Shown here in pieces: positions 12,936 to 27,520 of a DNA stretch of 64,000 nucleotides. The DNA is taken from the NCBI RefSeq assembly GCF_000967425.1, contig NZ_FO082820.1, positions 2,938,501 to 3,002,500 on the forward strand, given 5' to 3'. Source of the DNA: Pseudorhizobium banfieldiae (GTDB lineage Bacteria > Pseudomonadota > Alphaproteobacteria > Rhizobiales > Rhizobiaceae). The first letter of the stretch is position 1. Each line of letters starts with the position of its first letter. Under the pieces are notes generated by a model that was not told the DNA's origin, did no database searches, and worked only from the letters and a program-made list of their open reading frames with translations. The translations under genes were made by a program, and so were the position numbers.

Positions 12936-13439
12936 ATGAGGACAAGAAGAGAACTATTGCTGTCTGTTGTGCTGACGTCAGCGGCGCTGCTTTCGCCCTA
13001 CCGCGTGGCCTTCCTGAATCGCGGTCAGAGTTTCACACCCAACGAGGCTGCCGCACAAGGTAACAGTGGCGGGAACGGCGGTGGGAATGGCGGCGGCAAT
13101 GGCGGTGGGAACGGCGGTGGGAATAGCGGAGGTAGCGGTGGCGGGAACGGCAGCGGCAATGCCGGTGGGAACGGCGGAGGCAATAACGGGGGAAACAGCG
13201 GCGGCCGAAGCAGCGAGACGCGGGAAACAGGCCGTGGCACCGCGCCAGATCCATCCCGTCCAGGAAAGGGCGAAGTTGAAGTTCGCACCAACGGTCCCTC
13301 GATAACCGTACGCCACCCCAACGGCACCGTCGAGCGGATCGTCCGCAACCGCTACGAGATGCGCGATGCGCGCAACAGGCGGATCGTCAACCGGCGCGCC
13401 ACCGCTTCAGATCGCGCGCGTCTGAGATCCTTCCGCTGA
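12936..13439 (+). CDS. Exported Gly/Asn-repeat protein
   Basis: A 167-aa protein. The N-terminus has a basic start and a hydrophobic segment (MRTRRELLLSVVLTSAALLS), so it is exported or membrane-anchored. Residues about 40-90 are a tandem GGGN repeat (Gly-Gly-Gly-Asn with a few Ser), encoded by repeated GGCGGTGGGAATG-like units. A C-terminal region of about 70 residues is ordered-looking and basic (GEVEVRTNGPSITVRHPNGT, then VERIVRNRYEMRDARNRRIV), with a pattern like beta strands of an RHS-like or PepSY-like fold, but I cannot assign it. The last 33 bp overlap the convergent response-regulator gene. Function unknown; a surface or envelope role is inferred. Confidence 0.8.
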   Translation: MRTRRELLLSVVLTSAALLSPYRVAFLNRGQSFTPNEAAAQGNSGGNGGGNGGGNGGGNGGGNSGGSGGGNGSGNAGGNGGGNNGGNSGGRSSETRETGRGTAPDPSRPGKGEVEVRTNGPSITVRHPNGTVERIVRNRYEMRDARNRRIVNRRATASDRARLRSFR

Positions 13440-14078
13440 TTCCGCTCGCGTGGCGTCACGCAGCGCGAGCGCCGCTTCCGTCCTGTTGGAGACGTTTAGC
13501 TTGGTGAAGATGCGCGTCATGTGATGCTTGATTGTCTTTTCGTGCAGATCGAGCGCGATGGCGATACGTTTGTTGCTGAGCCCGGATGCCACCAGCTTCA
13601 GCACTTCCATCTCACGATGAGTGAGGTCGCTAAAAGGATCATGCCTTGGTTCCGACGACCTCGAAAGCGTCTCCACGAGACGTGCCGAAAGACTGGGCGC
13701 GATATAGCTCTGGCCGGAGGCGACGGCTTTGACCACTTCCGCCAGTCCTTGCGATCCGATGCCCTTCAGGACATAGCCTTTCGCACCCATCCTGACGGCA
13801 TTGGCAAGGTCGTCGCCGGCTTCCGAGACCGTCAGCATCACGATCTTCGCGTTTGGCTGCGCCTCGAGCACCGCTTGGATCGCCTTGAGGCCGTTCCCGG
13901 GCATGGAGATGTCCATCAGCATCACATCCGGTGCGTCATTTTCGGCGATGGCGACCGCATCATGGCTCGATGCTCCCTCGGCCACGATTTCCAGCCCAGG
14001 GGATTCTCCCAGGCTACGAATAACGCCTTCTCTGAAAAGCGGATGATCGTCCACTACCGCGACACGGATGTTCGTCAT
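13407..14078 (-). CDS. NarL/LuxR-type response regulator
   Basis: A 223-aa two-component response regulator. Receiver domain: residues 1 to about 125 (VAVVDDHPLFREGV acidic pocket; phospho-acceptor Asp in DVMLMDISMPG, about residue 56; Lys in AKGYVLKG). C-terminal LuxR-type helix-turn-helix: LTHREMEVLKLVASGLSNKRIA then LDLHEKTIKHHMTRIFTKLN. It starts inside the stop of the histidine kinase gene (ATGA overlap), so the two are translationally coupled and almost certainly partners. Targets are unknown; the repeat-rich exported proteins to the left are candidates by position only. Confidence 0.95.
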   Translation of the reverse strand: MTNIRVAVVDDHPLFREGVIRSLGESPGLEIVAEGASSHDAVAIAENDAPDVMLMDISMPGNGLKAIQAVLEAQPNAKIVMLTVSEAGDDLANAVRMGAKGYVLKGIGSQGLAEVVKAVASGQSYIAPSLSARLVETLSRSSEPRHDPFSDLTHREMEVLKLVASGLSNKRIAIALDLHEKTIKHHMTRIFTKLNVSNRTEAALALRDATRAESAEGSQTRAI

Positions 14079-15472
14079 TGTGTGAATTCTGCTCCCTCGG
14101 CTCTTAACGTCATGCAGACGGTTGTTCCGCTTGTCGAACTCTTAAGGCTGAAGTGACCGCCAATGCTCTCGATCCGTTCCCGCAGCCCCGCAATGCCAAG
14201 ACCCTCGGGCTTCACCTTTTCCACATCGAAGCCCGGACCTTCATCCTCTACTTCCACCGTGATCTCATTGTCATCCAGGGTTTGGCGCACTTTCTGTCCA
14301 GCCCCGCCTCCGTGGCGAAAGCCGTTATTTAGGGCCTCTTGAACAAACCTGTAGATGGTGATCTTCGCGGATGGCGAGAGTTCGCACGCGACATCCGACA
14401 ATCGAAGCGCCACGGGGGAACCTGTTCGTTGAACGTGGGCGTTCACGGCGCGAGTGATCACCTCGTGAAGGTCCCCATTTTCTATGTCAGGAAGGATGAG
14501 CCCCCTGCAGATCGCGCGGATCTCTTCCATCGCCTCATGGAGCCGGGCCTTGATCGCCGAAAGCTCGACCTCACGGACAGCGTCTGGTGTATCCGGTGTC
14601 ACGAGGGTCTTGCTGTCGATCCGAAGTGCGGCATAGGCCACCAGTTGCGCCGGACCGTCGTGCAGGTCAGCACCCAAGCGGCGCAGGTAACTCTCGTTCA
14701 GCGCAGTCGCTCTCTGAGATGCACGCTGGGCCCGCCTGTGAAGTTCGCGGTTTTGCTCCAGGAGGTTGGACAATTCGGCGACCCGCTCCGTCAGGGCAGC
14801 CTTTTGATCGTCAATGGTCCGGCTCCCCCGAACGACGATGGCGGAGAGAGAGAGAAAGAAAACTGCAACGACCGCAGCCACGGCTGCCCAACTCAGTAGC
14901 CTCGCCTCCCACAGGCTTTCCTCGAACCCCTCCGCCACCTCATAAAATTCGGAAACGGCCACGACTTCGCCCGACCACGGTTGCAGGATGGGATTGTAGA
15001 TCTTCAGGAGCGGTATGCCGGCGGCGCGTTCAGCGATGCTCTCCTCCTCGTCCGGTCGCTCGAATTCGGCAATCAGCTTGCCCGAGAACGCCCGTTGGAG
15101 TTCCTCGTTCAGCCCAAAGCGTCGGCCAATCATGCTGGGATCCGTAGCATAGAGAACCGTGCCATCCGCCCGCCACAGACGAAAGGAAATGACGCGGTCT
15201 CCCAGCGCTCCCTGTCCGAAGGTCTCGTCCAGCGTGCGGCTTGTAATATCGTCCAAGACCTCGGTGGTCTGAAGATCGGGAAGCAGCGGAGCAATGATGC
15301 CGTCCACGTACATTGCCGTGGTGGCCGCCGAGTTTCTGGTAACGGCAGCCTCGATAAGAGTTGTCACCAAAGCGCCCACGACCAGTGCTGCTGCAATGGA
15401 CACGACGCCGCCGGCCAAAAGAAACCGGCGCGCCAACGACTGCTGTCTCCACCGTTCGATTGTTCGGGACAA
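14075..15472 (-). CDS. Membrane sensor histidine kinase, NarX/DegS (HisKA_3) type
   Basis: A 465-aa kinase. One transmembrane helix near residues 17-45 and a second near 195-215 bracket a periplasmic sensor region. A coiled coil (about 220-260) follows, then the HisKA_3 dimerisation box with the phospho-His in YLRRLGADLHDGPAQLVAY, and a HATPase domain (EALNNGFRHGGGAGQK N-box; DEGPGFD and GLGIAGLRERIESIGG G-boxes). It phosphorylates the NarL-type regulator encoded immediately downstream. The start used is a TTG at 15472 preceded by AGAAGAG; no better ATG precedes the first membrane helix. The signal is unknown. Confidence 0.93.
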   Translation of the reverse strand: MSRTIERWRQQSLARRFLLAGGVVSIAAALVVGALVTTLIEAAVTRNSAATTAMYVDGIIAPLLPDLQTTEVLDDITSRTLDETFGQGALGDRVISFRLWRADGTVLYATDPSMIGRRFGLNEELQRAFSGKLIAEFERPDEEESIAERAAGIPLLKIYNPILQPWSGEVVAVSEFYEVAEGFEESLWEARLLSWAAVAAVVAVFFLSLSAIVVRGSRTIDDQKAALTERVAELSNLLEQNRELHRRAQRASQRATALNESYLRRLGADLHDGPAQLVAYAALRIDSKTLVTPDTPDAVREVELSAIKARLHEAMEEIRAICRGLILPDIENGDLHEVITRAVNAHVQRTGSPVALRLSDVACELSPSAKITIYRFVQEALNNGFRHGGGAGQKVRQTLDDNEITVEVEDEGPGFDVEKVKPEGLGIAGLRERIESIGGHFSLKSSTSGTTVCMTLRAEGAEFTQ

Positions 15473-15885: not shown

Positions 15886-16505
15886 CTAGCGAAGCACGTC
15901 CGGTGGCCAGGTGGAGAGGGACGAAAAGACGATGATCAGCAGGATGATGCCGATCTCGGCGATATGGACGGCACCAGTTCCCGCATCAGAGGCGTCAGCC
16001 GGATGTTGCCGATCTTCATCAGGATGAACAGGACGACACCCACCGGCGGCGAGATGAGCCCCATTGCAAGCGAGAGGATGATCACCATGGCAGCCTGGAT
16101 CGGATCGATGCCGAGTTGCATGACCGTGAGCATCACGAGCGGCACGAAGATGAGCAGCGCTGCGCCGATGTCGAGGAACATCCCGAGCACCAGCATCAGG
16201 ATCATCACGCCGACCAGGAACAGCATCGGGTTGCCCTGGAAGAACGGGGCGGCTGCGGTGACCATGGCGCCGATCCCCAGCAGGTTCAGCGCATAGGACA
16301 GCACGGATGCCGCGGCAACGAGAAGGTAGACGGTGGCGCTGGCCCGTGCGGAAACGATCAGCGCGCCCCAGAGGTCGGAAAAGCTGATGGTCCTGAACAT
16401 GAAGAGCCCGAGTACAACGGCAACGAAGACCACGATACCTCCCCCTTGGGTGGCCGTGAACGCACCCGTTACCATGCCGCCGACGATGCCTGCGTGGCGG
16501 TGCTT
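15886..16505 (-). pseudogene. Remnant of TRAP transporter large permease (DctM C-terminal part)
   Basis: About 200 residues of a DctM/TRAP large permease survive out of about 430. GIVGGMVTGAFTATQGGG near 16490-16440 corresponds to the mid-protein loop. The helices VMILMLVLGMFLDIGAALLI and AAMVIILSLAMGLISPPVGV and the ending RLTPLMRELVP are typical. There is an in-frame stop just upstream (16506-16508) and no upstream half. Near 15965 the frame shifts: the true C-terminus (IAEIGIILLIIVFSSLSTW) continues in another frame to 15886. It therefore has a 5' deletion and a frameshift, with no dctP or dctQ beside it. It is distinct from the intact dctM at 26234. Confidence 0.85.
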
Positions 16506-16738: not shown

Positions 16739-18106
16739 TCAGGTTAGGAACGAGGCTCTCGCCACGAACCATCGACCGCCTCTCTCGAAGGTAAGGCTGC
16801 CGCCGAGACGATCGAGCGCCATCTGGACGATAGAGAGTCCAAGGCCGCTCCCGTGCCCATGGGCCTTCGATCCCCTGAAGAAGCGTTCTGTGACCCGCGC
16901 CTCATCGGCAACCGAAATTCCCGGTCCCTGGTCGAGGATCTCGACGACAACCTCGCTTGGTCTCGCGATGACGCGGCACCTGACTTCTGTCCTTTTCGGC
17001 GAGTGCTGGATCGCGTTCTCAAGCAGATTTCGGATCACCAGACGGAGCAGGACCCTGTCAGTCTGAAGAACCGCAGGATGCTGGGCTCTATCTGCGAGTT
17101 CCATTGCGACGTGAACCTCGTTGGCTGCTAGCTGCGTCTCCAGTTCCGAAGCGATCTCGCCAACGAGGACGGCAACGTCGACTAGCTCGCGTCTGGCGAA
17201 GCCCTGTGACGCATCGACGGCGGCAAGATCAATAAGCTGCCGAACCATCCGGCTGGTTCGGTCGACGCTGGTGGAGATGCGGGAGAGGGCCTCGCGCTGG
17301 ATGGTGGGGTTGTCGGTTCGAAGAGCGACCTGCGCCTGGGTCTTGAGCCCCGCAAGCGGCGTCTTCAGTTCATGCGCGGCATAGGCGGTGAAGCTCCGCT
17401 CCCGGTCTCGCGCTTCGGCCACCCGGCCAAACAGGCTGTTCAGTGCCCGGACAACTGGCCGCACTTCCCGCGGAACGGAGCCGGCATCTATGGGATGAAG
17501 CTCCGATGCAGAACGGCCAGCAAGTCCTTCAGCGATGCGCGTCAGTGGGGCGAGACCGCGGCTGACGCTCAGCCAGATCAGCCCAGCAAGGATTGGGAGG
17601 ATAACGACGCCTGGAACGAGAAGCCCCTTGATGACGTCGCCGATCAGCCGGTCTCGGATCTCAAGACTGTCGCCGACCAGCACGCGAACGCCAAGCGTCG
17701 GATTGACGACGGCGTAGACGCGCCACCTTTCTCCGTCGATTTCGGTTTCCTCGAAGCCGTCCGTGTGGCTGGCGAGCGAGGTTGCAGGCGCGCTTTCCGA
17801 GCGGCTGACGAGGCTGCCCTGAAGCGACCAGATTTGGCAGGAAAGCTGGCGGCTGTAGCTGCCGCCGGCTTCCTTGAATGGCGAAGGGGGAGCATCGGCA
17901 GTTGCCGCATTGGCTGCCGCGGAGGGATCGATCTGGTGATCCGTGATCAGCGAACTCACCATGCGTGCCGCCTCCATCAGGCGGGCGTCAAGTACGCGCT
18001 CGACCTCGGCCTGGGTGCTGGCGTAGATCCAGGCAGCGGCGAACAGCCACACCGCGCCGGTCGTGGCAATGAGGATCGCAAACAGTCTGATCCGTATGGA
18101 GTTCAT
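16739..18106 (-). CDS. Sensor histidine kinase, QseC/PmrB-like
   Basis: A 455-aa membrane kinase starting MNSIRIRLFAILIATTGAVW. Transmembrane helices at about 7-30 and 165-190 enclose a periplasmic domain of about 135 residues. A HAMP-like linker follows (GLAPLTRIAEGLAGRS), then HisKA with the phospho-His in FTAYAAHELKTPLAGLKTQ and HATPase boxes (NLLENAIQHSP; DQGPGI; GHGSGLGLSIVQMAL). The architecture matches QseC/PmrB sensors. ATG 18106 overlaps the stop of the response regulator gene (ATGA), fixing the start against a longer open frame. It pairs with the regulator at 18103. Divergent dsbD suggests an envelope-related signal, which is inference. Confidence 0.94.
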   Translation of the reverse strand: MNSIRIRLFAILIATTGAVWLFAAAWIYASTQAEVERVLDARLMEAARMVSSLITDHQIDPSAAANAATADAPPSPFKEAGGSYSRQLSCQIWSLQGSLVSRSESAPATSLASHTDGFEETEIDGERWRVYAVVNPTLGVRVLVGDSLEIRDRLIGDVIKGLLVPGVVILPILAGLIWLSVSRGLAPLTRIAEGLAGRSASELHPIDAGSVPREVRPVVRALNSLFGRVAEARDRERSFTAYAAHELKTPLAGLKTQAQVALRTDNPTIQREALSRISTSVDRTSRMVRQLIDLAAVDASQGFARRELVDVAVLVGEIASELETQLAANEVHVAMELADRAQHPAVLQTDRVLLRLVIRNLLENAIQHSPKRTEVRCRVIARPSEVVVEILDQGPGISVADEARVTERFFRGSKAHGHGSGLGLSIVQMALDRLGGSLTFERGGRWFVARASFLT

Positions 18107-18765
18107 TCTGCACCCCTCAATCGATAGCCTGCGCCACGCACGGTCTCGATGAAGTTCGCGCCGAGCTTCGAGCGCAGCTTGTGGACGTGAACCTCCACCG
18201 TATTGCTCTCGATCTCCTCCTGCCATCCATAAAGCTTCTCCTCGAGATTCGACCGGGACAGGATGACCCCCGGCGTCTCCATCAGCGCCTGCAGGATGAC
18301 GAACTCCCGCCGCGAGAGGGCGATCGCCGTGCCGGCACGCGACGCAGACATCCGGGCGGGGTCAAGGCTTACGTCTTTCCACTCCAGAAGTCCCGTCGCC
18401 CGACCATGCCCACGGCGCACAATGGCGCGCAGCCGCGCAGCAACCTCGTCGAGATCGAAGGGCTTGCCGAGATAGTCGTCGGCTCCGGAATCCAACCCTG
18501 CTATTCGGTCGGCAACCTCGTCCTTCGCCGTCAGGAGGAGAACAGGGGTGCGGTCTCCCGATCGACGCATCTTCGCCAGCACGTCGTGTCCCGAACCGTC
18601 CGGGAGCATGAGGTCAAGGATAACGGCATCGAATTTGTCGGCCTTGATTGCAGCGTCGGCATCGGCAATCGATGTCACCGCGTCAACCGTAAAGCCGCAC
18701 ATCTGCAACCCAACCTTCAGGCCGTCCAGCAGGATCTCGTCATCTTCAACCACAAGCAGGCGCAT
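18103..18765 (-). CDS. OmpR-family response regulator, QseB/PmrA-like
   Basis: A 220-aa regulator. The receiver opens MRLLVVEDDEILLDGLKVGL; the phospho-acceptor is Asp in AVILDLMLPDGSG (about residue 51); the Lys is in ADDYLGKPFDLDE. The C-terminal winged helix includes RREFVILQALMETPGVILSR and SNTVEVHVHKLRSKLG then TVRGAGYRLR. QseB/PmrA proteins bind two CTTAA-type half sites spaced by 5 bp; exactly such a site (18806-18822) lies 41 bp upstream of this start, between this gene and divergent dsbD. It may therefore regulate both itself and the thiol-redox operon. The kinase gene follows with a 4-bp overlap. Confidence 0.95.
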   Translation of the reverse strand: MRLLVVEDDEILLDGLKVGLQMCGFTVDAVTSIADADAAIKADKFDAVILDLMLPDGSGHDVLAKMRRSGDRTPVLLLTAKDEVADRIAGLDSGADDYLGKPFDLDEVAARLRAIVRRGHGRATGLLEWKDVSLDPARMSASRAGTAIALSRREFVILQALMETPGVILSRSNLEEKLYGWQEEIESNTVEVHVHKLRSKLGANFIETVRGAGYRLRGAE

Positions 18766-18805
18766 TGCATCCTCATTGACTTCACAACCTCCCTGCGCCC
18801 GTCAC

Positions 18806-18822
18806 CTTAAGGCTGCCTTAAG
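18806..18822 (+). promoter_or_regulatory. PmrA/QseB-type operator box upstream of dsbD
   Basis: CTTAAG-GCTGC-CTTAAG: two identical half sites with a 5-bp spacer, the pattern known for PmrA/QseB regulators (YTTAAK-N5-YTTAAK). It is in the divergent region, 46 bp before the dsbD start and 41 bp before the response-regulator start. A second copy with one changed base occurs at 22865. Confidence 0.75.
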
Positions 18823-18868
18823 GTTGGGACGAGAGACCGCCGCTCCAACTCAAGCAACGGAGCGGATC

Positions 18869-20713
18869 TTGCGTTTCTTCCTGTCGGTTTCATGTTTCAT
18901 CACGACCTTGGCCGTGTCGGCGATGGCGTCTGCCATCGAACCGCCACTGCCCATGGATCAGGCATTCCGCATGGAGGCACGACGCGACGGTCCTGACATC
19001 GCAATAAGATGGCAGCTTGAGGACGGCTATTATCTCTATCGCGAATACCTGAGCGCAACGGGGGCGGACGGCAAGCCCGTAGAGCTGACAACTCCGCCTG
19101 GCATCATCAAGGAAGATCCCGGATACGGAAGCACCGAAGTCTACTATAACTCGACCACGGCAGCGATTGCGGGGCCGGTCAGTGGCTCCTTGACGGTCAC
19201 CTACCAGGGCTGCCAGGACGGCGGGCTTTGCTATCCTCCTAAAACGGTCGATATCGACACGGCGGGACTTGCGTCCACATGGACATCAAAGACACCTGAA
19301 CCTCAAGCTGCGCTTCAATCGCAGGCAGCCTTTCCCCTGGTGTCCAAGGCCGCGCCGGAACCCGACGACAATCCTGGCATCCGTATCTCGGACCAGTCTA
19401 CCAGCGGAGTAGTCGGCTCTCTCCTGAACCGCGGCGGTGTGCTCTTCCTGATCGCCGGCTTTCTGGGTCTCGGCATGTTGCTGGCCTTCACGCCATGCGT
19501 CTTTCCCATGTACCCGATCCTGGTCGCGACGCTGTCGAGGGAGGGCGAGAGTCTCCCTGCCGGACGCGGTTTCGCACTGTCACTGACCTACGTCCTTGCT
19601 CTTGCGGCGGCATTCAGTCTCTTCGGTGTCGTCGCCGCATGGTGGGGCCAGAGCTTCCAGATCGCCCTGCAGTCGACCACTGCGACCATCGTCGTCGCCG
19701 CCATCTTTGTTGCTCTGGCATTTTCGAGCTTCGGACTCTTCGAACTCCAGCTGCCGTCCTTCCTCTCGAACCGGCTTGCGGGGCGCCGCGGTGCCGGAGG
19801 TTCATTGGCGTCTTCAGCAGCGCTCGGGTTTTCCTCTGCTTTGGTCATAGGCCCTTGCGTCACGGCTCCGCTTGCGGGCGCACTTCTCTACATTGCGCAG
19901 ACCGGAGACGTCGTTCTCGGTGCGACGGCCCTGTTTGCGCTCGGCGTCGGGAAGGGCATCCCGCTGATCCTGATGGGGACCTTTGGATCGGGCCTGCTTC
20001 CTCGTGCAGGACAGTGGATGGAGCGCGTCCGGCAGGTGTTTGGCTTCCTCTTTCTCGCGACCGCCGTATGGCTCGTGGATCGTCTGTTGCCTGCCGGGAC
20101 TGGTCTTCTGTTGTGGTCTGTCCTGGCGATTACCTTCGCCGTCTTCGTCGGCGCCTTCGACCAGATCAAGGCCGAGACGGGTGGGACTGCGCGGCTGGCC
20201 AAGTCCGCGGGAATGCTGGCCGCGCTCTACGGCGTCATGCTGGGGATTGGGGGACTCTCTGGCGCAACCGATCCTCTAAAGCCTCTTGCAACGATCGCTG
20301 TCGCGCGCTCCGGAGACGCCATACCCGCGAAAACGATCGACAAGGGCTCCTTCCAGGCCGTTTCCTCGGCAGCGGAACTGTCCTCGCTCCTGGAGGCCGA
20401 TGCCACCGGCGCTCCCTCGCTTGTCTACTTCACGGCTGACTGGTGCGTCACATGCCGGGTGATCGAGCGATCGGTCTTTCCGGATCCGACCGTGGCTGAC
20501 GCGCTGGACGGAGTCCGCCTGATCTCGGTCGAGCTCAGCAAGATAAACAAGGAAAACCAGTCGCTGATGAAGGAGCTTCAGGTCGTCGGGCCGCCGACCA
20601 TGCTGTTCCTGGATGACAGCAATAGCGAGATCGCCGGCAGCCGCCTCGTGGGCGAGATTACCGCGCAGACCGTCGCGGCTTCCGCGTCAGCCGTCAAGGG
20701 TGCGCTTCGATGA
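18869..20713 (+). CDS. dsbD: Thiol:disulfide interchange protein DsbD
   Basis: A 614-aa membrane electron carrier. An N-terminal signal segment is followed by the periplasmic alpha domain with its cysteine pair in YQGCQDGGLCYPP (about residues 115-125). Eight transmembrane helices carry the paired cysteines LAFTPCVFPMYPIL and IGPCVTAPLAGAL. The C-terminal thioredoxin domain has FTADWCVTCRVIE. DsbD moves electrons from cytoplasmic thioredoxin to periplasmic thiol proteins. The start is a TTG at 18869 with CGGAG 6 nt upstream; the open frame extends further, but into the divergent promoter. The stop overlaps the next ATG. It heads an operon with a TlpA protein, two L,D-transpeptidases and a DsbA-like protein nearby. 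Confidence 0.93.
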   Translation: MRFFLSVSCFITTLAVSAMASAIEPPLPMDQAFRMEARRDGPDIAIRWQLEDGYYLYREYLSATGADGKPVELTTPPGIIKEDPGYGSTEVYYNSTTAAIAGPVSGSLTVTYQGCQDGGLCYPPKTVDIDTAGLASTWTSKTPEPQAALQSQAAFPLVSKAAPEPDDNPGIRISDQSTSGVVGSLLNRGGVLFLIAGFLGLGMLLAFTPCVFPMYPILVATLSREGESLPAGRGFALSLTYVLALAAAFSLFGVVAAWWGQSFQIALQSTTATIVVAAIFVALAFSSFGLFELQLPSFLSNRLAGRRGAGGSLASSAALGFSSALVIGPCVTAPLAGALLYIAQTGDVVLGATALFALGVGKGIPLILMGTFGSGLLPRAGQWMERVRQVFGFLFLATAVWLVDRLLPAGTGLLLWSVLAITFAVFVGAFDQIKAETGGTARLAKSAGMLAALYGVMLGIGGLSGATDPLKPLATIAVARSGDAIPAKTIDKGSFQAVSSAAELSSLLEADATGAPSLVYFTADWCVTCRVIERSVFPDPTVADALDGVRLISVELSKINKENQSLMKELQVVGPPTMLFLDDSNSEIAGSRLVGEITAQTVAASASAVKGALR

Positions 20714-21525
20714 ATGCGGTGTCCTTCGGTCCCTTCGCGTTCGACACGGAGCGCTTCGCTGCCATCGCGGGCATGATCGTATTCCTTGCCGTGGCGTCCG
20801 TTCTTGCTCACCGGGTTGACGACAGGCTCGGCCGCTGGTCGTCTTGGACGGCTCTGGTCGGACTGGCAGCGGCGCGCCTGGGACATGTTCTGCAGCATTC
20901 CGGCAGCTTCGCGACAGAGCCGTGGCGTATCCTTGCGGTGTGGCAGGGCGGCTTTTCCTGGAGCGGTGGTGCCGCAGGCGTGGCCCTGATGCTGGTCGTG
21001 CTGTTCCTGAGCAGCCGGAAGCTCGCCGGATGGGCCACGGCCAGCGTTGTTGCAGGCGTCGTTGCCACAGCGGCGACCTTGGCATTGACCTCTTCGGGCA
21101 CCCAGGTTCCGCCTGTCACGTCCAATTTCCATTCCCTCACTGGAGCCGAGACCACGATCGGCAACAACGGTCGTCCTACGGTTTTGAACCTATGGGCGAC
21201 GTGGTGCCCCCCTTGTCGCCGCGAGCTGCCGATGATGGCGGAACTCGCTGCCAGTACGGCTGACGTCGACTTTGTCTTCGCAAACCAGGGAGAACCTTCG
21301 GCAAAGATTGCTGAATACCTCCGCCGCGAGAACCTTGACCTGCCGCAGGCGGTGCTCGATCCGCAGCTTCTGCTCAGCCGCCACTATTCGGCCGTCGGCC
21401 TGCCCGCGACACTCTTTCTAGCAGCCGATGGCACGCTTGCCGGCTCCCACCTGGGGGAGATCTCCCGCGAGGTTCTCGCGCAGAAGATCCAGGAACTCAT
21501 ATCTGAAGAAGGAATATCCGAATGA
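20710..21525 (+). CDS. Membrane-anchored TlpA-type thioredoxin with Lgt-like membrane domain
   Basis: A 271-aa two-domain protein. Residues 1 to about 130 hold several transmembrane helices resembling prolipoprotein diacylglyceryl transferase ([33 protein letters not shown]), but too short for an active Lgt. Residues about 140-271 are a TlpA/ResA-like thioredoxin domain with the active site [14 protein letters not shown] and a cis-Pro loop ([10 protein letters not shown]). TlpA proteins reduce periplasmic disulfides and normally take electrons from DsbD or CcdA; here dsbD overlaps it by 4 bp, so DsbD is the likely donor. The next gene also overlaps by 4 bp. Confidence 0.88.
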
Positions 21526-22217
21526 CACCTTCCCGAGCGGCCGCTCCGTGGCGACCGTTGACCGCCTCGCTTTTTGTCATGGGCCTGTCTGCCTGCGCGC
21601 AGACCGCCCCGGAGCCACCAAAGGTCGAAGGACCAAAAGTGGATCCGTCACTGGCGAGCATGTACGCGCCGATCAAGGATGGGGACGAGACAATTCCTGG
21701 GGTCGACGTCTCCAAGATGGATCCGAAGAACGTCCGGCAGGTGGTTGACTACAAGACCGGTTATCCGGCGGGCACGATCGTAGTCGACCCCTATTCCCGG
21801 TTTCTCTACCTCGTCATGGAGAACGGCAAGGCAATGCGTTACGGCGTCGGCGTCGCCAAAGCTGGCATGGAGTTCGAGGGCGAGGCTGATATCTCGCGCA
21901 AGGCACAGTGGCCGGGCTGGGTGCCCACCCAGAACATGATCAAGCGCGATCCGGAACGCTACGGCCCTTTGGCATCGGGCCTGGAGGGGGGCATCAACAA
22001 CCCTCTGGGAGCGCGTGCCCTGTACCTCTACCAGGGCGGCAAGGACACGCTCTATCGAATCCACGGGACCAATGAGCCCTGGAGCATTGGCAAGTCTGTC
22101 TCGTCCGGCTGCATCAGACTGCTGAACCACGACATCATCGACCTGCACCGCCGTGTCCCGAAGGGATCGAAGGTGGTCGTGCTCGGACCCGAAGAATCAG
22201 GAAAAGGAGAAATATGA
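21522..22217 (+). CDS. L,D-transpeptidase lipoprotein (YkuD domain), copy 1
   Basis: A 231-aa protein with a lipoprotein-type N-terminus (hydrophobic segment ending MGLSAC, Cys of about residue 26 as lipidation site). The YkuD domain covers about residues 75-225, with the catalytic signature: His in IHGTNEPW and Ser-x-Gly-Cys in [14 protein letters not shown]-transpeptidases make 3-3 peptidoglycan crosslinks or attach outer-membrane proteins to peptidoglycan through this single cysteine. It overlaps the TlpA gene (ATGA) and precedes the DsbA-like gene by 1 bp. A paralogue of similar length lies at 22927. The cysteine chemistry fits the surrounding thiol-redox genes. Confidence 0.93.
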
Positions 22218-22218
22218 C

Positions 22219-22830
22219 ATGATTACCCGTAGAAACCTGCTCGCCGTCACCGCGGGCACTGCCGCATTGGCTTCCGTCCTCCCGCGCCTGGCCTTCAGCC
22301 AGGAAATTACCGAGAAAACCGTCTTCCATGATCCCGACGCACCGGTTCTCGGCAATCCCGAAGGCGACGTCACCGTCGTCGAGTTCTTCGACTACCAGTG
22401 CCCCTTCTGCAAGAAGATCCACCCGACGGTCGAGAAGGTCGTTCGTGAGGACGGTAATGTCCGACTCGTGCTGAAGGACTGGCCCGTGTTCGGAGGCGCA
22501 TCGGTCTTTGCTGCCCAGGCCGTTCTTGGAGCCGCGCAGATCGGCAAGTACGAGCCTGCGATGGAAGCGTTGATGAAGACGACCGGAAAGCTCACGGAAG
22601 AAATCGTCGAAAAGACCCTGACAGGCGCGGGCCTTACCATGAAGGAGATTGCGGCCGCCGTGAATGAGCACAGCGCCAAGATCTCCGGCCTGCTCGATCG
22701 CAACTACAATCAGGCACTGGCCTTCAACTTCGCGGGGACGCCCTCCTTCGTCATCGGCCGGACGACCTTCGCCGGCGTGCTGGACGAGAAGGGGCTGAAG
22801 GAGGCGATCGCGGAGGCCCGCGCGGCCTGA
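22219..22830 (+). CDS. DsbA-family periplasmic thiol:disulfide oxidoreductase
   Basis: A 203-aa protein with a Tat-like signal (MITRRNLLAVTAGTAALASV, cleavage after AFSQ region). The DsbA-fold domain shows the active site VEFFDYQCPFCKKIHP (CPFC) and a cis-Pro loop AGTPSFVIG. Depending on its redox partner it could oxidise substrates (DsbA) or, with DsbD upstream, act as a reductase or protector like DsbC/DsbG. The longer open frame was rejected because AAAGGAGA precedes the ATG at 22219 and the signal peptide starts there. It lies 1 bp after the L,D-transpeptidase stop and ends the operon. Confidence 0.92.
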   Translation: MITRRNLLAVTAGTAALASVLPRLAFSQEITEKTVFHDPDAPVLGNPEGDVTVVEFFDYQCPFCKKIHPTVEKVVREDGNVRLVLKDWPVFGGASVFAAQAVLGAAQIGKYEPAMEALMKTTGKLTEEIVEKTLTGAGLTMKEIAAAVNEHSAKISGLLDRNYNQALAFNFAGTPSFVIGRTTFAGVLDEKGLKEAIAEARAA

Positions 22831-22864
22831 TCGGGGGTTCCACGGCCGAGCGGCCCCGTCGTCG

Positions 22865-22881
22865 CTTAAGGCTGCCGTAAG
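22865..22881 (+). promoter_or_regulatory. Second PmrA/QseB-type box, upstream of L,D-transpeptidase copy 2
   Basis: CTTAAG-GCTGC-CGTAAG differs from the dsbD box by one base and keeps the same 5-bp spacer sequence. It ends 45 bp before the ATG at 22927, almost the same distance as the first box from dsbD (46 bp). This suggests a separate but co-regulated promoter for the second transpeptidase. Confidence 0.65.
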
Positions 22882-22926
22882 GCGGGCAGGCTTGGAACCA
22901 GCCTGCGATCAACAAAGAATATTAAT

Positions 22927-23685
22927 ATGGCCTATGACATTCAGACTGAAAAGAGAACGAACAGCTCAACGGGACGGCGGGTTGGCGCAGGCTTGCCAAG
23001 GCGCTCCTTCATCCTTGGTCTAGGCGCAATCGCCGTCTCTGGCTGTGTATCGACCGAGCCGCCACCCGTTGCAACCATCGCCGAACCGCCACCTGCGCCC
23101 AGGCCGGTGGTACCGCCCATGTATTATGCGATGCCCAACGAGAGATTTCCGATCCCGGAAGTGGATATCAGCCAGCTACCGCCGCAGTTCTGGCGGACAG
23201 AGGTGGACTACCCCACCAACGAGAAGACTGGGACGTTGATCGTAGATACGCCCGCCAAATATCTCTACCACGTCAAGGCAGATGGCCGCGCCATGCGCTA
23301 CGGGATCGGGGTGGGGCGGGAGGGGTTCGCCTGGGCAGGAGAAGCCATCATGGCTTACAGACGTGAGTGGCCCCGCTGGACACCTCCTGATTCCATGGTC
23401 GCGCGTCAACCGGAACTGGAGCCCTACAGCATCGCCAACGGCGGCATGGATCCCGGATTGAAGAATCCACTTGGAGCCCGCGCCCTTTATATCCATGAAA
23501 ACGGGAAGGATACCCTCTATCGCATCCACGGCACTCCAGAGGCTTTTAGTATCGGGAAGGCCGTTTCCTCAGGTTGCATCCGGCTCATCAATCAGGACGT
23601 GATACACCTTCACGACGAGGTTCGTGATGGCAGCCGGATCGTGGTCATCCCGGATCCAACAATGAAGCATCTGCTCGTCGGTTGA
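22927..23685 (+). CDS. L,D-transpeptidase lipoprotein (YkuD domain), copy 2
   Basis: A 252-aa paralogue of the protein at 21522. The N-terminus is long and polar, then a hydrophobic stretch ends in a lipobox-like IAVSGC (Cys of about residue 39), followed by a Pro-rich linker. The YkuD domain shares long blocks with copy 1 ([20 protein letters not shown]; His in IHGTPEAF; catalytic Cys in [12 protein letters not shown]). It is expected to work on peptidoglycan in the periplasm. It has its own upstream region with a PmrA/QseB-type box, not an overlap with the preceding gene. The ribosome-binding site is weak. An IS element starts 50 bp after the stop. Confidence 0.92.
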   Translation: MAYDIQTEKRTNSSTGRRVGAGLPRRSFILGLGAIAVSGCVSTEPPPVATIAEPPPAPRPVVPPMYYAMPNERFPIPEVDISQLPPQFWRTEVDYPTNEKTGTLIVDTPAKYLYHVKADGRAMRYGIGVGREGFAWAGEAIMAYRREWPRWTPPDSMVARQPELEPYSIANGGMDPGLKNPLGARALYIHENGKDTLYRIHGTPEAFSIGKAVSSGCIRLINQDVIHLHDEVRDGSRIVVIPDPTMKHLLVG

Positions 23686-23769: not shown

Positions 23770-24630
23770 CTATGTTTTCTGCACGCGCTCGAACTCAACG
23801 GGCGACAGCATCCCGTTTCTGACGTGCTTGCGTTTCGGGTTGTAGAACATTTCGATGTAGTCGAACACGTCCTGACGAGCTTCGTCGCGTGAGCGGTAGA
23901 CCCTGCGACGTATCCGCTCCCGCTTCAGAAGGTTGAAGAAGCTCTCAGCCACTGTGTTGTCATGGCAATTGCCGCGGCGGCTCATCGAGTGAACCAGATT
24001 GTGGTGTTTGAGGAACGAGGCCCAGTCCATGCTGGTGAACTGCGAGCCCTGATCCGAATGGACCAGAACCTGATCCTTTGGCTTGCGTCGCCACACCGCC
24101 ATGAGCAGCGCCTGCAGCACGACGTCGGTGGTTTTACGGCTCTGCATTGACCAGCCGATCACCCGGCGGGAATAGAGATCGATGACGACGGCGAGATAGG
24201 CGAAGCCCTCGCAGGTCCTGATGTAGGTGATATCCGTCACCCAGGCCTTGTCAGGAGCCGTTACGTCAAACTGCCGGTCAAGCGTGTTGTCGACAACGAC
24301 GGAAGGCCTGCCGCCATAGATGCCGGGACGGCGCTTGTAGCCAATCTGCGCCTTGATCCCGGCAAGCCTTGTCAGACGCGCGACGCGGTTCGGGCAGCAC
24401 GCTTCGCCCTGGTCGAGCAGATCATCGTGCAGCTTGCGATAGCCGTAAACCTTGCCGCTCTCCTCCCAAGCCTGAAGCAGGAGATCAGTCTGTCGTTTGT
24501 CCTCGCTGGCCCGTTTGCTCAACGGGTTCTTCAGCCAGGCGTAGAAGCCGCTCGGGTGTACATGGAGAAGCCGACACATCGTCCGCACCGAGAAGCACAG
24601 GCGATGCAGGGCAATGAATGCGTACTTCAC
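23770..24630 (-). CDS. IS3-family transposase OrfB
   Basis: A 286-aa DDE integrase-fold transposase with GTG start 24630. An N-terminal HTH_21-like region (MCRLLHVHPSGFYAWLKNPL) is followed by the rve catalytic core with the three acidic residues in WVTDITYI, LVHSDQGSQF and DNTVAESFFN. The last 110 codons match the plus-strand remnant at 60788-61115. The frame is intact and normal length; in active elements OrfB is made as an OrfAB fusion by -1 frameshifting, but OrfA is broken here. Confidence 0.95.
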   Translation of the reverse strand: MKYAFIALHRLCFSVRTMCRLLHVHPSGFYAWLKNPLSKRASEDKRQTDLLLQAWEESGKVYGYRKLHDDLLDQGEACCPNRVARLTRLAGIKAQIGYKRRPGIYGGRPSVVVDNTLDRQFDVTAPDKAWVTDITYIRTCEGFAYLAVVIDLYSRRVIGWSMQSRKTTDVVLQALLMAVWRRKPKDQVLVHSDQGSQFTSMDWASFLKHHNLVHSMSRRGNCHDNTVAESFFNLLKRERIRRRVYRSRDEARQDVFDYIEMFYNPKRKHVRNGMLSPVEFERVQKT

Positions 24631-25237: not shown

Positions 25238-26062
25238 ATGCTCCAGAAGAAGCACAAGTCTAAAGCAAGTCCCGTGAGCACCACTCCCACCGACCGTCCA
25301 AAGCCTACCGCGAAGTTCAACCGTAACCGTCTCAGCGTGGAGAAATTTCCGACCCGCGTTGAGATGGGCGCTGCCGCTGCGGCCGACATCATCAGTCACC
25401 TCAAAGCGCGCCTTGCAACACAGTCGAAGGTACGGATGATCTTTGCTGCCGCGCCTAGCCAGGCCGAAATGTTGGCGGCGCTAGTCGCAGACGGTAGCAT
25501 CGATTGGTCCCGTGTCACTGCCTTCCATATGGATGAATATATCGGTCTCGAGCCCGGTTCACCCGCACGCTTTGCGAGGTGGCTGGATGCCAATCTGTTC
25601 GAAATGGTTCGATTTGATTGTGTCCATCGCATCGACCCCGGCCCCGCTCCGGAGCTTGAAGCGCGCCGCTATGCCGTGCATTTAGATGAAGCTGCTATAG
25701 ACGTGGTGTGCCTCGGGATTGGGGTCAATGGGCACATTGCTTTCAACGATCCGCCTGTCGCAGACTTCGATGATCCCTTCGACGTCAAGATAGTCGACCT
25801 CGATGAGGTCTGCCGACAACAACAGGTAGATGATGGTTGTTTTCCGGATCTTGGCTCAGTGCCGCAGCAGGCGATCACTCTCACCGTCCCGCGTCTGCTG
25901 CGGGCCGGTCGACTGTTCTGCGTCGTTCCAGGTGAGGTCAAACGGACGGCTGTCTCGCGAACCCTCCATGGCCCGATAGATACGGCGTGCCCTGCGAGCA
26001 TCTTGAAAACGCACAGCGCCTGTACGCTTTACGTCGATGAAGCCTCCTGCCCGGATGATTGA
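25238..26062 (+). CDS. Glucosamine-6-phosphate deaminase-like protein (NagB family)
   Basis: A 274-aa sugar-isomerase-fold protein. After a basic, low-complexity N-terminus of about 35 residues it shows the NagB pattern: VTAFHMDEYIGLEPG (about residues 88-103), CLGIGVNGHIAFNDPP (about 158-172) and a C-terminal CVVPGEVKRTAVSRTL and ACPASILKTHS. NagB enzymes convert glucosamine-6-phosphate to fructose-6-phosphate and ammonia; some relatives act on other phosphosugars. GAGAGGA precedes the ATG at 25238 by 7 nt. It stands alone, convergent with the TRAP operon and close to the candidate island's left end. The substrate is uncertain. Confidence 0.82.
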   Translation: MLQKKHKSKASPVSTTPTDRPKPTAKFNRNRLSVEKFPTRVEMGAAAAADIISHLKARLATQSKVRMIFAAAPSQAEMLAALVADGSIDWSRVTAFHMDEYIGLEPGSPARFARWLDANLFEMVRFDCVHRIDPGPAPELEARRYAVHLDEAAIDVVCLGIGVNGHIAFNDPPVADFDDPFDVKIVDLDEVCRQQQVDDGCFPDLGSVPQQAITLTVPRLLRAGRLFCVVPGEVKRTAVSRTLHGPIDTACPASILKTHSACTLYVDEASCPDD

Positions 26063-26233: not shown

Positions 26234-27520
26234 CTACATCAGCCATGCTGGCAGGAAGAGGACAATCTGCGGGAACAGGATCATCGCTATTACCAGCGCC
26301 AGGACAGCTGCAGCCAACGGCAGCATCTCGACGGTATATTCCTTGTAAGAACAGCGCAGGATACCGCAAACAGTGAACATTGACACCCCGACCGGGGGTG
26401 TCATACCGCCGAAGGTGACCAGCGTCATCATCACCAAACCAAAATGTACCGGATCTATTCCGGCGGCCGTGATTACAGGCACCAGAATCGGCGTCAGGAG
26501 CATGACGAGGACCGTCGCTTCGATCAGCATCCCGAGAACGAGCAGGAAGCCCGCGATCACAAACAGGAGCACGGTGGGATTGGAAATGGCGGTAAGCGAG
26601 AACTCTGCGATACTTTGCGGGACCCGCTCAAACGTTATCACATAGCCAAAGGCGCCTGAAAACAGGATGATCAGCATGATCATGCCGATGTCGCGCACGC
26701 TGCGGATCAGAGCATCAATAAGGGCAGCAACCGTCAGTTCGCGATAGACGACAAAGCCGATGAATAGTGCGTAAGCCACTGCGAAACCGCCGGCTTCCGA
26801 GGGGGTAAAGAAGCCAAAGCGAATACCGACTAGAAGCCAGATAGGAAACAGGATTGCCCAGAAGCTGCCCTTGAAGGCAAGCCAGATTTCCCGCGTGGTC
26901 GGGAGGCGATCATTCTCAGGCTGGTAACCGCGGCGGTAGGAGATGCCCCAGGTGGCGAACATCAAGACGATCGTCAAGAGTACCCCCGGCACGACGCCCG
27001 CGATGAACAGGCGGCCGATGGAGACTTCGCCCAGATATCCGTAGAGGATCAGCCCCAAGCTTGGAGGCAAAGTCGCAGTAATGAGACCGCCGATTGATAG
27101 AACAGCTGCGGTAAAACCGCGATGATAGCCCTTTTCGACCATCGGCTCGCCAAGGATCCGCGATTGCATAGCAGCGTCAGCGACCGCAGAGCCAGACACT
27201 CCACCCATCAAGGCACTGAGGATGAGGGTCGATTGCGCCAGACCGCCGCGCATCCAGCCTGCAACTGTGGTCGCAAGCGCGACCAGGCGTGGCGTGATAC
27301 CGGAACTGTTCATCAAATTCCCAAGCAGAATGAACAGGGGTACTGACAACAATGGGAAAGATTGGCTGGCGGCAACGATACGCTGTGCAGCAGTGCTATC
27401 GGGGAGAAACACAGACGGCAGCAGAAAATAGGCGGAACCGGCAATGCCAATCGCGAAGGCGACAGGCATTCCGATGCCGATGAGCGCAAGCGCTCCGAAC
27501 AGAATGAATGTGGAAATCAA
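26234..27520 (-). CDS. TRAP transporter large permease (DctM family)
   Basis: A 428-aa polytopic protein, normal length for DctM, with about 12 hydrophobic segments. Typical motifs are PLFILLGNLMNSSGI, LMGGVSGSAVADAAMQSRIL and GGMTPPVGVSMFTVCGI. It forms the ion-coupled channel of a tripartite TRAP importer with the small permease and the periplasmic binding protein encoded just upstream. The start is a TTG overlapping the dctQ stop (TTGA), so it is translationally coupled. It is the last gene of the gntR-age-dctP-dctQ-dctM operon. Confidence 0.95.
   Translation of the reverse strand: MISTFILFGALALIGIGMPVAFAIGIAGSAYFLLPSVFLPDSTAAQRIVAASQSFPLLSVPLFILLGNLMNSSGITPRLVALATTVAGWMRGGLAQSTLILSALMGGVSGSAVADAAMQSRILGEPMVEKGYHRGFTAAVLSIGGLITATLPPSLGLILYGYLGEVSIGRLFIAGVVPGVLLTIVLMFATWGISYRRGYQPENDRLPTTREIWLAFKGSFWAILFPIWLLVGIRFGFFTPSEAGGFAVAYALFIGFVVYRELTVAALIDALIRSVRDIGMIMLIILFSGAFGYVITFERVPQSIAEFSLTAISNPTVLLFVIAGFLLVLGMLIEATVLVMLLTPILVPVITAAGIDPVHFGLVMMTLVTFGGMTPPVGVSMFTVCGILRCSYKEYTVEMLPLAAAVLALVIAMILFPQIVLFLPAWLM

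Follow-up and report, generated by a model that had tools for sequence, protein, structure and literature searches.

Does a thiol-redox chain encoded beside two L,D-transpeptidases (Ldts) form one regulated unit with them, and does it serve to keep these single-cysteine enzymes active? This question is raised by a locus of Pseudorhizobium banfieldiae located in a stretch of 64,000 nucleotides of contig NZ_FO082820.1 (positions 2,938,501 to 3,002,500), the whole of which was analysed and is here termed the window. Genes for DsbD, a TlpA-type thioredoxin, a DsbA-like protein and two lipoprotein Ldts lie there next to a two-component system (TCS). Judged from sequence comparison, the evidence leans towards this block being a self-contained, horizontally moving regulon that keeps periplasmic single-cysteine Ldts active.

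Organization of the locus and identity of its gene products

Four genes on the plus strand were found to be tightly packed, as the earlier note on this DNA had described, namely dsbD (18869..20713), tlpA (20710..21525), ldt1 (21522..22217) and the gene of the DsbA-like protein (22219..22830). Overlaps of 4 bp occur between dsbD and tlpA and between tlpA and ldt1, with a gap of 1 bp from ldt1 to the DsbA-like gene. After a gap of 96 bp these are followed on the same strand by ldt2 (22927..23685), which is probably a separate transcription unit. The TCS is divergent from dsbD and is encoded on the minus strand by an OmpR-type response regulator (RR) gene (18103..18765; Response_reg, Trans_reg_C) and a sensor histidine kinase gene (16739..18106, start taken from the translation; 2CSK_N, HisKA, HATPase_c), the two overlapping by 4 bp. 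The kinase lay outside the interval covered by the earlier note, the wording of which, QseBC/PmrAB-like, was right for this system. The best two NCBIfam models for RR and kinase were those of QseB/QseC and PmrA/PmrB, yet all scored under their equivalog cut-offs (bits against cut-off: QseB 235.3/345, QseC 250.6/475, PmrA 225.7/330, PmrB 165.6/314).

DsbD (DsbD_N, DsbD_TM at 3.3e-76, Thioredoxin_7) has a TTG start, giving a length equal to that of an annotated relative (locus L001, of the soil bacterium Pseudorhizobium flavum YW14), and contains the three cysteine pairs typical of the family (C115/C121, C210/C330 and C526/C529). It matched the DsbD subfamily model (PRK00293) at 496 bits (cut-off 330) and was the only full-length DsbD match in the genome, the other match being partial (19.9 bits). 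Both Ldts exceeded the curated cut-off of YkuD (PF03734; 9.2e-19 and 1.6e-16) and possess the catalytic motif S-x-G-C-x-R (SSGCIRL). Besides the lipobox cysteine (C25 in Ldt1, C40 in Ldt2), the sole cysteine of each is the catalytic one (C197 and C217, respectively). As the genome possesses 16 YkuD genes in 4.58 Mb, density alone would put about 0.02 Ldts within 7 kb of any chosen site. Among solved structures, both Ldts are closest to PDB 6v45, deposited as 'Probable carnitine operon oxidoreductase caia', a name that is probably a misnomer.

The earlier note had also placed a DsbA-family protein in this locus, and the thioredoxin-fold match of the 203 aa product (Thioredoxin_4/DSBA, with a CPFC motif) agrees with this, with the correction that it is Com1/ScsC-like. 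Its nearest solved structures were of Com1 and ScsC types (3gyk, a 27 kDa outer membrane protein, and lower in the list 4gxz), while profile searches listed no match to the DsbG/DsbC family at E <= 0.01, nor does a length of 203 aa suit the dimerising N-terminal domain of that family. An identity as DsbG or DsbC was consequently set aside, ScsC/Com1-like being the better name on sequence grounds. The protein carries a Tat-like signal containing the residues RR (by eye).

Conservation and distribution of the linkage

Loci for comparison were obtained by scanning genome contigs, which left 80 of 586 relatives, from whole-genome searches and from hand-picked annotated plasmids. The plasmid loci (L001-L004, L099-L112) were picked from lists partly naming L,D-transpeptidase, and several of them seeded family profiles; counts are also given without them. 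Open reading frames (ORFs) were scanned with hidden Markov models (HMMs), an Ldt being called at >=200 bits within 6 kb of a locus, and sulfur genes being counted as YeeE/YedE, TauE, persulfide dioxygenase/Blh, SQR-like, SulP and TetH. Locus L122, on the same contig as L052, was dropped from the linkage counts and is still in the kinase cysteine count below, while L039, L044 and L056, in which the thioredoxin half of TlpA alone matched, were placed in neither the fusion nor the non-fusion group. Neighbour counts are bounded by contig ends and by flanks of 8-10 kb. Order names of loci with G handles rest on kinship to the window, the nearest named relatives being Rhizobiaceae.

The TlpA of this locus is a fusion with an Lgt-like half domain (described below), and such fusions were found to be rare, occurring in 4/289 genomes of the class sample, 9/347 of the order sample and 3/57 of the genus sample (P. 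banfieldiae itself included each time). The HMM scan gave 79 loci with a fusion TlpA. Where these were accompanied by a TCS, an Ldt was present within 6 kb in all 24 loci of Hyphomicrobiales (16/16) and Rhodobacterales (8/8), and in 14/14 without the picked plasmids (11/11 and 3/3, respectively). Conservation of the gene order outside the strain had been put forward as a check in the earlier note, and the linkage was indeed found. Loci with a non-fusion TlpA (n=27), a weak control as they are mostly from other phyla, had neither an Ldt nor sulfur genes in any case. Several gene orders were identified (tlpA-ldt-dsbA, tlpA-dsbA-ldt, ldt divergent from dsbD, and ldt beyond the kinase gene); as the order varies but membership is constant, function is favoured over simple descent.

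Operator-like boxes shared by the redox chain and the Ldts

An operator-like box, CTTAAG-N5-CTTAAG, was identified between the RR gene and dsbD (18806..18822; CTTAAGGCTGCCTTAAGG at 18806), at distances of 40 bp to the start of the RR gene and 46 bp to that of dsbD. A second box was found 45 bp before the start of Ldt2 (22865..22881; CTTAAGGCTGCCGTAAGG at 22865). Scanning with up to two mismatches gave four matches over both strands, with shuffles giving a mean of 0.10 and at most 3. On the genome of 4.58 Mb, the pattern CTTAAGG-N4-CBTAAGG without mismatch occurs at only two places, both in the module; allowing one mismatch added a single match. With the reversed control pattern (<=1 mismatch, whole genome), 6 and 4 matches were obtained on the two strands; the rarity therefore lies in exactness and not in the loose pattern. 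The PmrA box is a TTAAG-type direct repeat with an N5 spacer, and judging by their letters, the boxes before these putative target genes appear to be of this type. A hairpin seen by eye between the box and the starts of dsbD and Ldt2 was not kept in all close relatives and was dropped.

Among 14 genomes with a fusion TlpA, the exact box was found at 18 sites, 17 of them near the module (reversed control, 1). The box-free genomes in this set (G159, G039, G012) have loci without an Ldt. A further 17 records showed 23 exact sites (control, 0); two of these records (W07 and W10) were without any, and the dsbD starts there have boxes with one (L101) and two (L104) mismatches. Four exact boxes were found in 54 genus members lacking the fusion TlpA, two of which belong to reduced units, namely TCS-box-DsbD-Ldt-DsbA (G658) and TCS-box-Ldt-DsbA (G667), with the others being in G668 and G682.

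For 26 module Ldts with a readable lipobox/start (those with an unreadable start being left out), ten were found to have an upstream box that was exact or differed at one position, these being all nine other members of the Ldt2 clade (see below) and L102_4192. The remaining 16, which follow tlpA or dsbA, had at least four mismatches upstream. A box of this quality occurs in 1.7% of 205-bp segments from the same loci. Two further Ldts standing apart from the dsbD operon (L002 3851 and L106 11189) have a box at one mismatch, and boxes were also identified upstream of dsbG (L001, L163) and dsbA (L009, L118). The proposal of the earlier note that repair chain and Ldts form one regulated locus is upheld by the conserved linkage, the shared putative operator and the reduced unit of G667, and co-regulation of the chain and the Ldts is, on these sequence features, regarded as very probable.

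Separate lineages of Ldts

A tree of 43 catalytic regions, in which the clades for testing were defined on inspection of the finished tree, was found to split the operonic (Ldt1-type) from the separate (Ldt2-type) proteins. Ten rows make up the Ldt2 clade (support 100/98), and beside it stand three rows of chromosomal paralogues from P. banfieldiae (support 95/56). Forcing both types into one clade was rejected (approximately unbiased (AU) test, p 0.0016), and forcing all 36 module Ldts together against seven paralogues of the same genome gave a p of 0.040. According to this tree, the Ldt1 and Ldt2 types are separate recruits. Short Tat-type Ldts with a box in Rhodobacterales (L007, L011), which are outside the tree, look like a further lineage, that of L007 having been confirmed as YkuD. 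Wherever the N-terminus is readable, Ldts of both lineages have a single cysteine besides that of the lipobox, with the exception of L103.

A conserved cysteine in the sensor kinase

An alignment of 47 kinase rows (including the window and one duplicate contig) from alpha, beta and gamma loci revealed one periplasmic cysteine, C90 (SCQIW here), kept in 44/44 module kinase rows with letters at that position, and it was also present in 13/13 kinases of a further check. The other 2CSK_N kinase of the P. banfieldiae genome has no cysteine in its sensor domain. At the position of C90, a cysteine is absent from two further kinases found in the loci, that of L107 having cysteines elsewhere in that half. 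This pattern of sequence conservation suggests thiol-based sensing. On the plasmid of Rhizobium sp. X9 (L099, 5063-6398) the kinase gene is annotated as two pieces.

The Lgt-like half domain of TlpA

The N-terminus of TlpA (residues 7-122) was found to match PF01790 (Lgt) at 3.3e-13, ahead of its Redoxin domain, with the match covering profile positions 7-123 of 240, i.e. the first half only. Among the 120 homologues listed, R56 is invariant, a GP near the start and a W-Q-G-G stretch are nearly so, and the CPPC motif is kept in 119. The catalytic histidine of Lgt, which we take to be that of the HGG motif, aligns with S85 of TlpA; a histidine stands at this position in one of the 120 homologues listed and in none of 80 locus rows. 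With the second half of Lgt also missing, Lgt activity of the fusion is unlikely.

In the structure model of TlpA, built from a 40-row alignment and with a mean pLDDT of 88.8, residues 13 to 128 contain helices and are followed by a ResA-like thioredoxin domain. Foldseek comparison with the PDB gave ResA (1st9) as the best fold match; the 50 matches listed were all of the thioredoxin fold and are neutral with regard to the Lgt half. The model thus predicts a membrane-anchored thioredoxin fold with CPPC, as in TlpA/ResA proteins. We take the modelled N-terminal domain to be a retired Lgt half serving as a membrane anchor, and a role for it as a thiol conduit is speculation. The earlier note had missed this fusion, as well as the boxes, the conserved and patchy linkage and the kinase cysteine.

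Sulfur genes near relatives of the locus

In the Bosea locus (L003), a box lies before a same-strand run of genes whose products are a cytochrome, TetH, a binding protein and the fusion TlpA with its Lgt-like half; TetH, a thiosulfate dehydrogenase, scored 394.8 bits against a cut-off of 300. Another box there stands upstream of a gene of the 5'-nucleotidase family, in which a likeness to the SoxB-like gene of a Paracoccus locus (L007) was seen by eye. In L007, this SoxB-like gene, which at 293.7 bits does not reach the cut-off of 550, and a gene resembling, by eye, the CcoN-like gene of L118 (275.2 bits, cut-off 583) have a box between them. Boxes before CcoN-like oxidase subunit I genes were seen in L118 at 14997 (by profile), and in L164 at 9144 and L007 at 4653 (by resemblance); a divergent cbb3-type oxidase may be a regulon member. 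In the available text of PMC9237845, the tsdAB neighbourhood of Halomonas is described with QseB, a kinase and DsbG, and with a thioredoxin in six genomes. Judging by the neighbouring genes in some relatives, the trigger would be reactive sulfur, a suggestion to which we give slightly less than even weight.

Genomic surroundings

An IS3-type transposase gene (rve, HTH_21) is situated at 23770-24630 of the window, approximately 85 bp past the ldt2 stop and on the opposite strand, which fits with a mobile block. A fragment of a DctM TRAP permease gene lies on one side of the module (15936-16475) and a full DctM gene on the other (26234-27520), these pieces being gene debris around the block. Upstream of this debris, a second TCS with a NarL-type response regulator and a HisKA_3 kinase was identified (13407-15472), and a glucosamine-6-phosphate isomerase-like gene is located downstream of the transposase (25238-26062).

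Comparison with known systems

As given in the accessible part of PMC3526765 (citing Depuydt 2009), DsbG of E. coli, kept reduced by DsbD, interacts with single-cysteine transpeptidases. The P. banfieldiae locus is similar in pairing a putatively DsbD-fed periplasmic thioredoxin-fold reductant with single-cysteine transpeptidases, and differs in that chain and Ldts are in one operon and under one box type, that the reductant is ScsC/Com1-like, and that there is an additional TlpA bearing an Lgt-like half. In E. coli the DsbD, DsbG and transpeptidase genes are scattered. The ScsABCD system (suppression of copper sensitivity) has DsbD-like, TlpA-like and ScsC-like members in one operon, as is the case here. 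Unlike it, the present locus has Ldts and a cysteine-bearing sensor kinase, no ScsA was seen in it, and its DsbD fits the DsbD subfamily model in a comparison that included no ScsB model. An identity of this DsbD as ScsB was not supported in that comparison.

Pseudomonas loci of the order TCS-dsbD-tlpA-dsbG (L018, L022-L026) share the TCS type, the sensor cysteine, DsbD and the Lgt-TlpA fusion. They differ in that DsbG replaces the ScsC-like protein, no Ldt is present within 6 kb and no exact CTTAAG box occurs; repeats of the type GTTAAT-N5-GTTAAT, with the same 11-bp period, were found between the RR gene and dsbD in L018 and L023-L026. The counterpart of these loci in P. aeruginosa is presumably PA2476-PA2480. 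PmrAB/QseBC systems resemble the present TCS in a TTAAG-type direct repeat with an N5 spacer, an OmpR-type RR and a 2CSK_N sensor, and differ from it in the scores under equivalog cut-offs, the conserved sensor cysteine and the regulon.

A TCS linked to thiosulfate/tetrathionate genes is also described, in the text available, for RsrS-RsrR of Acidithiobacillus caldus (PMC5093147) and for tsdAB of Halomonas (PMC9237845), the latter further sharing DsbG and a thioredoxin. The RsrR box of A. caldus differs (AACACCTGTTACACCTGTT; PMC5093147), and no mention of Ldts was seen in the available text of either paper. Likewise, the accessible text of PMC7315123, on A. baumannii and sulfide, does not mention transpeptidase, DsbG, DsbD or TlpA, and no description of this gene set together with Ldts was found in the portions available of the open-access literature searched.

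Proposed mechanism and alternative explanations

In the mechanism proposed here, the kinase would detect thiol-damaging conditions through its conserved periplasmic cysteine. The signal would most likely be reactive sulfur (sulfane sulfur, tetrathionate or sulfide oxidation products), with ordinary oxidants or copper also possible. The RR would bind the CTTAAG-N5-CTTAAG boxes before dsbD/RR and before Ldt2, and Ldt1 and Ldt2 would be produced simultaneously with the reducing chain. Electrons carried across the inner membrane by DsbD would go to TlpA, held at the membrane, and to the ScsC-like protein of the DsbA family; both recipients would in turn restore the catalytic cysteines of the two Ldts to the reduced state after oxidation or persulfidation. 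That the Ldts are clients of the DsbD/TlpA/DsbA-like chain is considered likely. The full picture, a mobile regulon whose periplasmic-cysteine kinase senses reactive sulfur and yields Ldts together with a thiol-repair line, bridging sulfur oxidation, thiol repair and L,D-crosslinking, is put forward tentatively. The degrees of confidence expressed for co-regulation, the client relation and the sulfur trigger are matters of judgement.

A number of observations weigh against this reading. Elsewhere than in Hyphomicrobiales and Rhodobacterales, none of 18 loci with fusion TlpA and TCS had an Ldt within 6 kb (beta 0/3, gamma 0/12, Sphingomonadales 0/2, other alpha 0/1), while DsbG was found in all 15 beta/gamma loci; the Dsb chain must therefore also have other clients, and the wider family does not bear out the description of the module in the earlier note as dedicated to L,D-transpeptidases. 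Fusion loci of Hyphomicrobiales without a TCS (L006, L019, L101) are likewise without an Ldt. Regarding the boxes, that before Ldt2 here carries one mismatch, and L104, having a TCS and Ldts, shows only boxes with two mismatches. Four Ldts near modules lack a box close upstream (L005_14840 with four mismatches; L002_15244, L103_10771 and L106_11830 with five each) and may lie outside the dsbD operon. The conserved sensor cysteine falls short of proof of redox sensing. Sulfur genes occur within 11 kb of only 14/42 TCS loci (7/29 without the picked plasmids; 8/37 for fusion loci without TCS) and near only 7 of the 24 Hyphomicrobiales/Rhodobacterales TCS loci with an Ldt. The sulfur profiles matched nothing in the 64-kb window, and the Blh-BigR-YeeE-YedE-TauE run of the same genome (L183, C1:2546723) lies at a distance of 410 kb and is not among the box matches.

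Some of these points would also suit co-regulation without a client relation, with the Ldts being envelope-strengthening outputs (3-3 crosslinks, outer-membrane anchoring) and the Dsb chain serving other proteins. Ldt2 owns an upstream box, beta/gamma modules keep the chain without Ldts, and a Pseudomonas study on Mn oxidation obtained Tn5 mutants in a TlpA-like gene, located between dsbD and dsbG in strain DSV-1 (PMC11409713, text available in part). This is nevertheless unlikely, as Ldt1 sits between tlpA (4 bp overlap) and dsbA (1 bp gap), the reduced unit of G667 retains exactly an Ldt and the DsbA-like protein, and the Ldts of both lineages are, L103 excepted, single-cysteine besides the lipobox where readable. 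The chain might also serve periplasmic sulfur oxidation (SoxYZ-, TetH- or Tsd-type cysteines, c-type cytochromes), as SoxV/SoxW do in like manner, with the Ldts being passengers. The 14 TCS loci with sulfur genes, the boxes before SoxB-like, cytochrome-TetH and CcoN-like genes in single relatives, and the gene content around tsdAB in Halomonas as described above (PMC9237845, available text) are in keeping with this. We regard it as quite improbable in view of an Ldt being present in 24/24 Hyphomicrobiales/Rhodobacterales TCS loci against sulfur genes in 7/24, the window being devoid of sulfur-profile matches, and two reduced units retaining Ldt and DsbA.

Equally improbable is an Scs-type copper or hypochlorite response, in which ScsB/C/D-like proteins would repair thiols damaged by copper or HOCl and the sulfur neighbours would be plasmid hitchhikers. 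The DsbA-like protein is near 4gxz, 6nen and 6mhh (deposited under suppression of copper sensitivity, copper resistance and metal resistance) and RND efflux genes lie near some copies (L001, L004, L103); set against this, DsbD exceeds the cut-off of the DsbD subfamily model, and the 18 annotated stretches name no copper-resistance gene, the closest case being a protein of L103 with a multicopper oxidase domain. A chance assembly of unrelated genes, in favour of which nothing was found, has a practically negligible probability and was rejected on the rarity of the box and the conserved linkage, the Ldt being kept in 24/24 loci in several gene orders and from separate lineages.

Implications

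If the regulon proposed here does keep its Ldts active, it would be a natural and transferable demonstration that single-cysteine Ldts need a dedicated reductant, an idea that to our knowledge has so far rested on DsbG of E. coli. A transferable block would unite the chain, its putative clients and a thiol-bearing sensor, the kinase of the module being a candidate periplasmic sensor for thiols or sulfur in which one residue stands out. As the operator is short and very rare in these genomes, much of the regulon may be readable from sequence. Rhizobiales rely on outer-membrane anchoring, a process in which Ldts matter.

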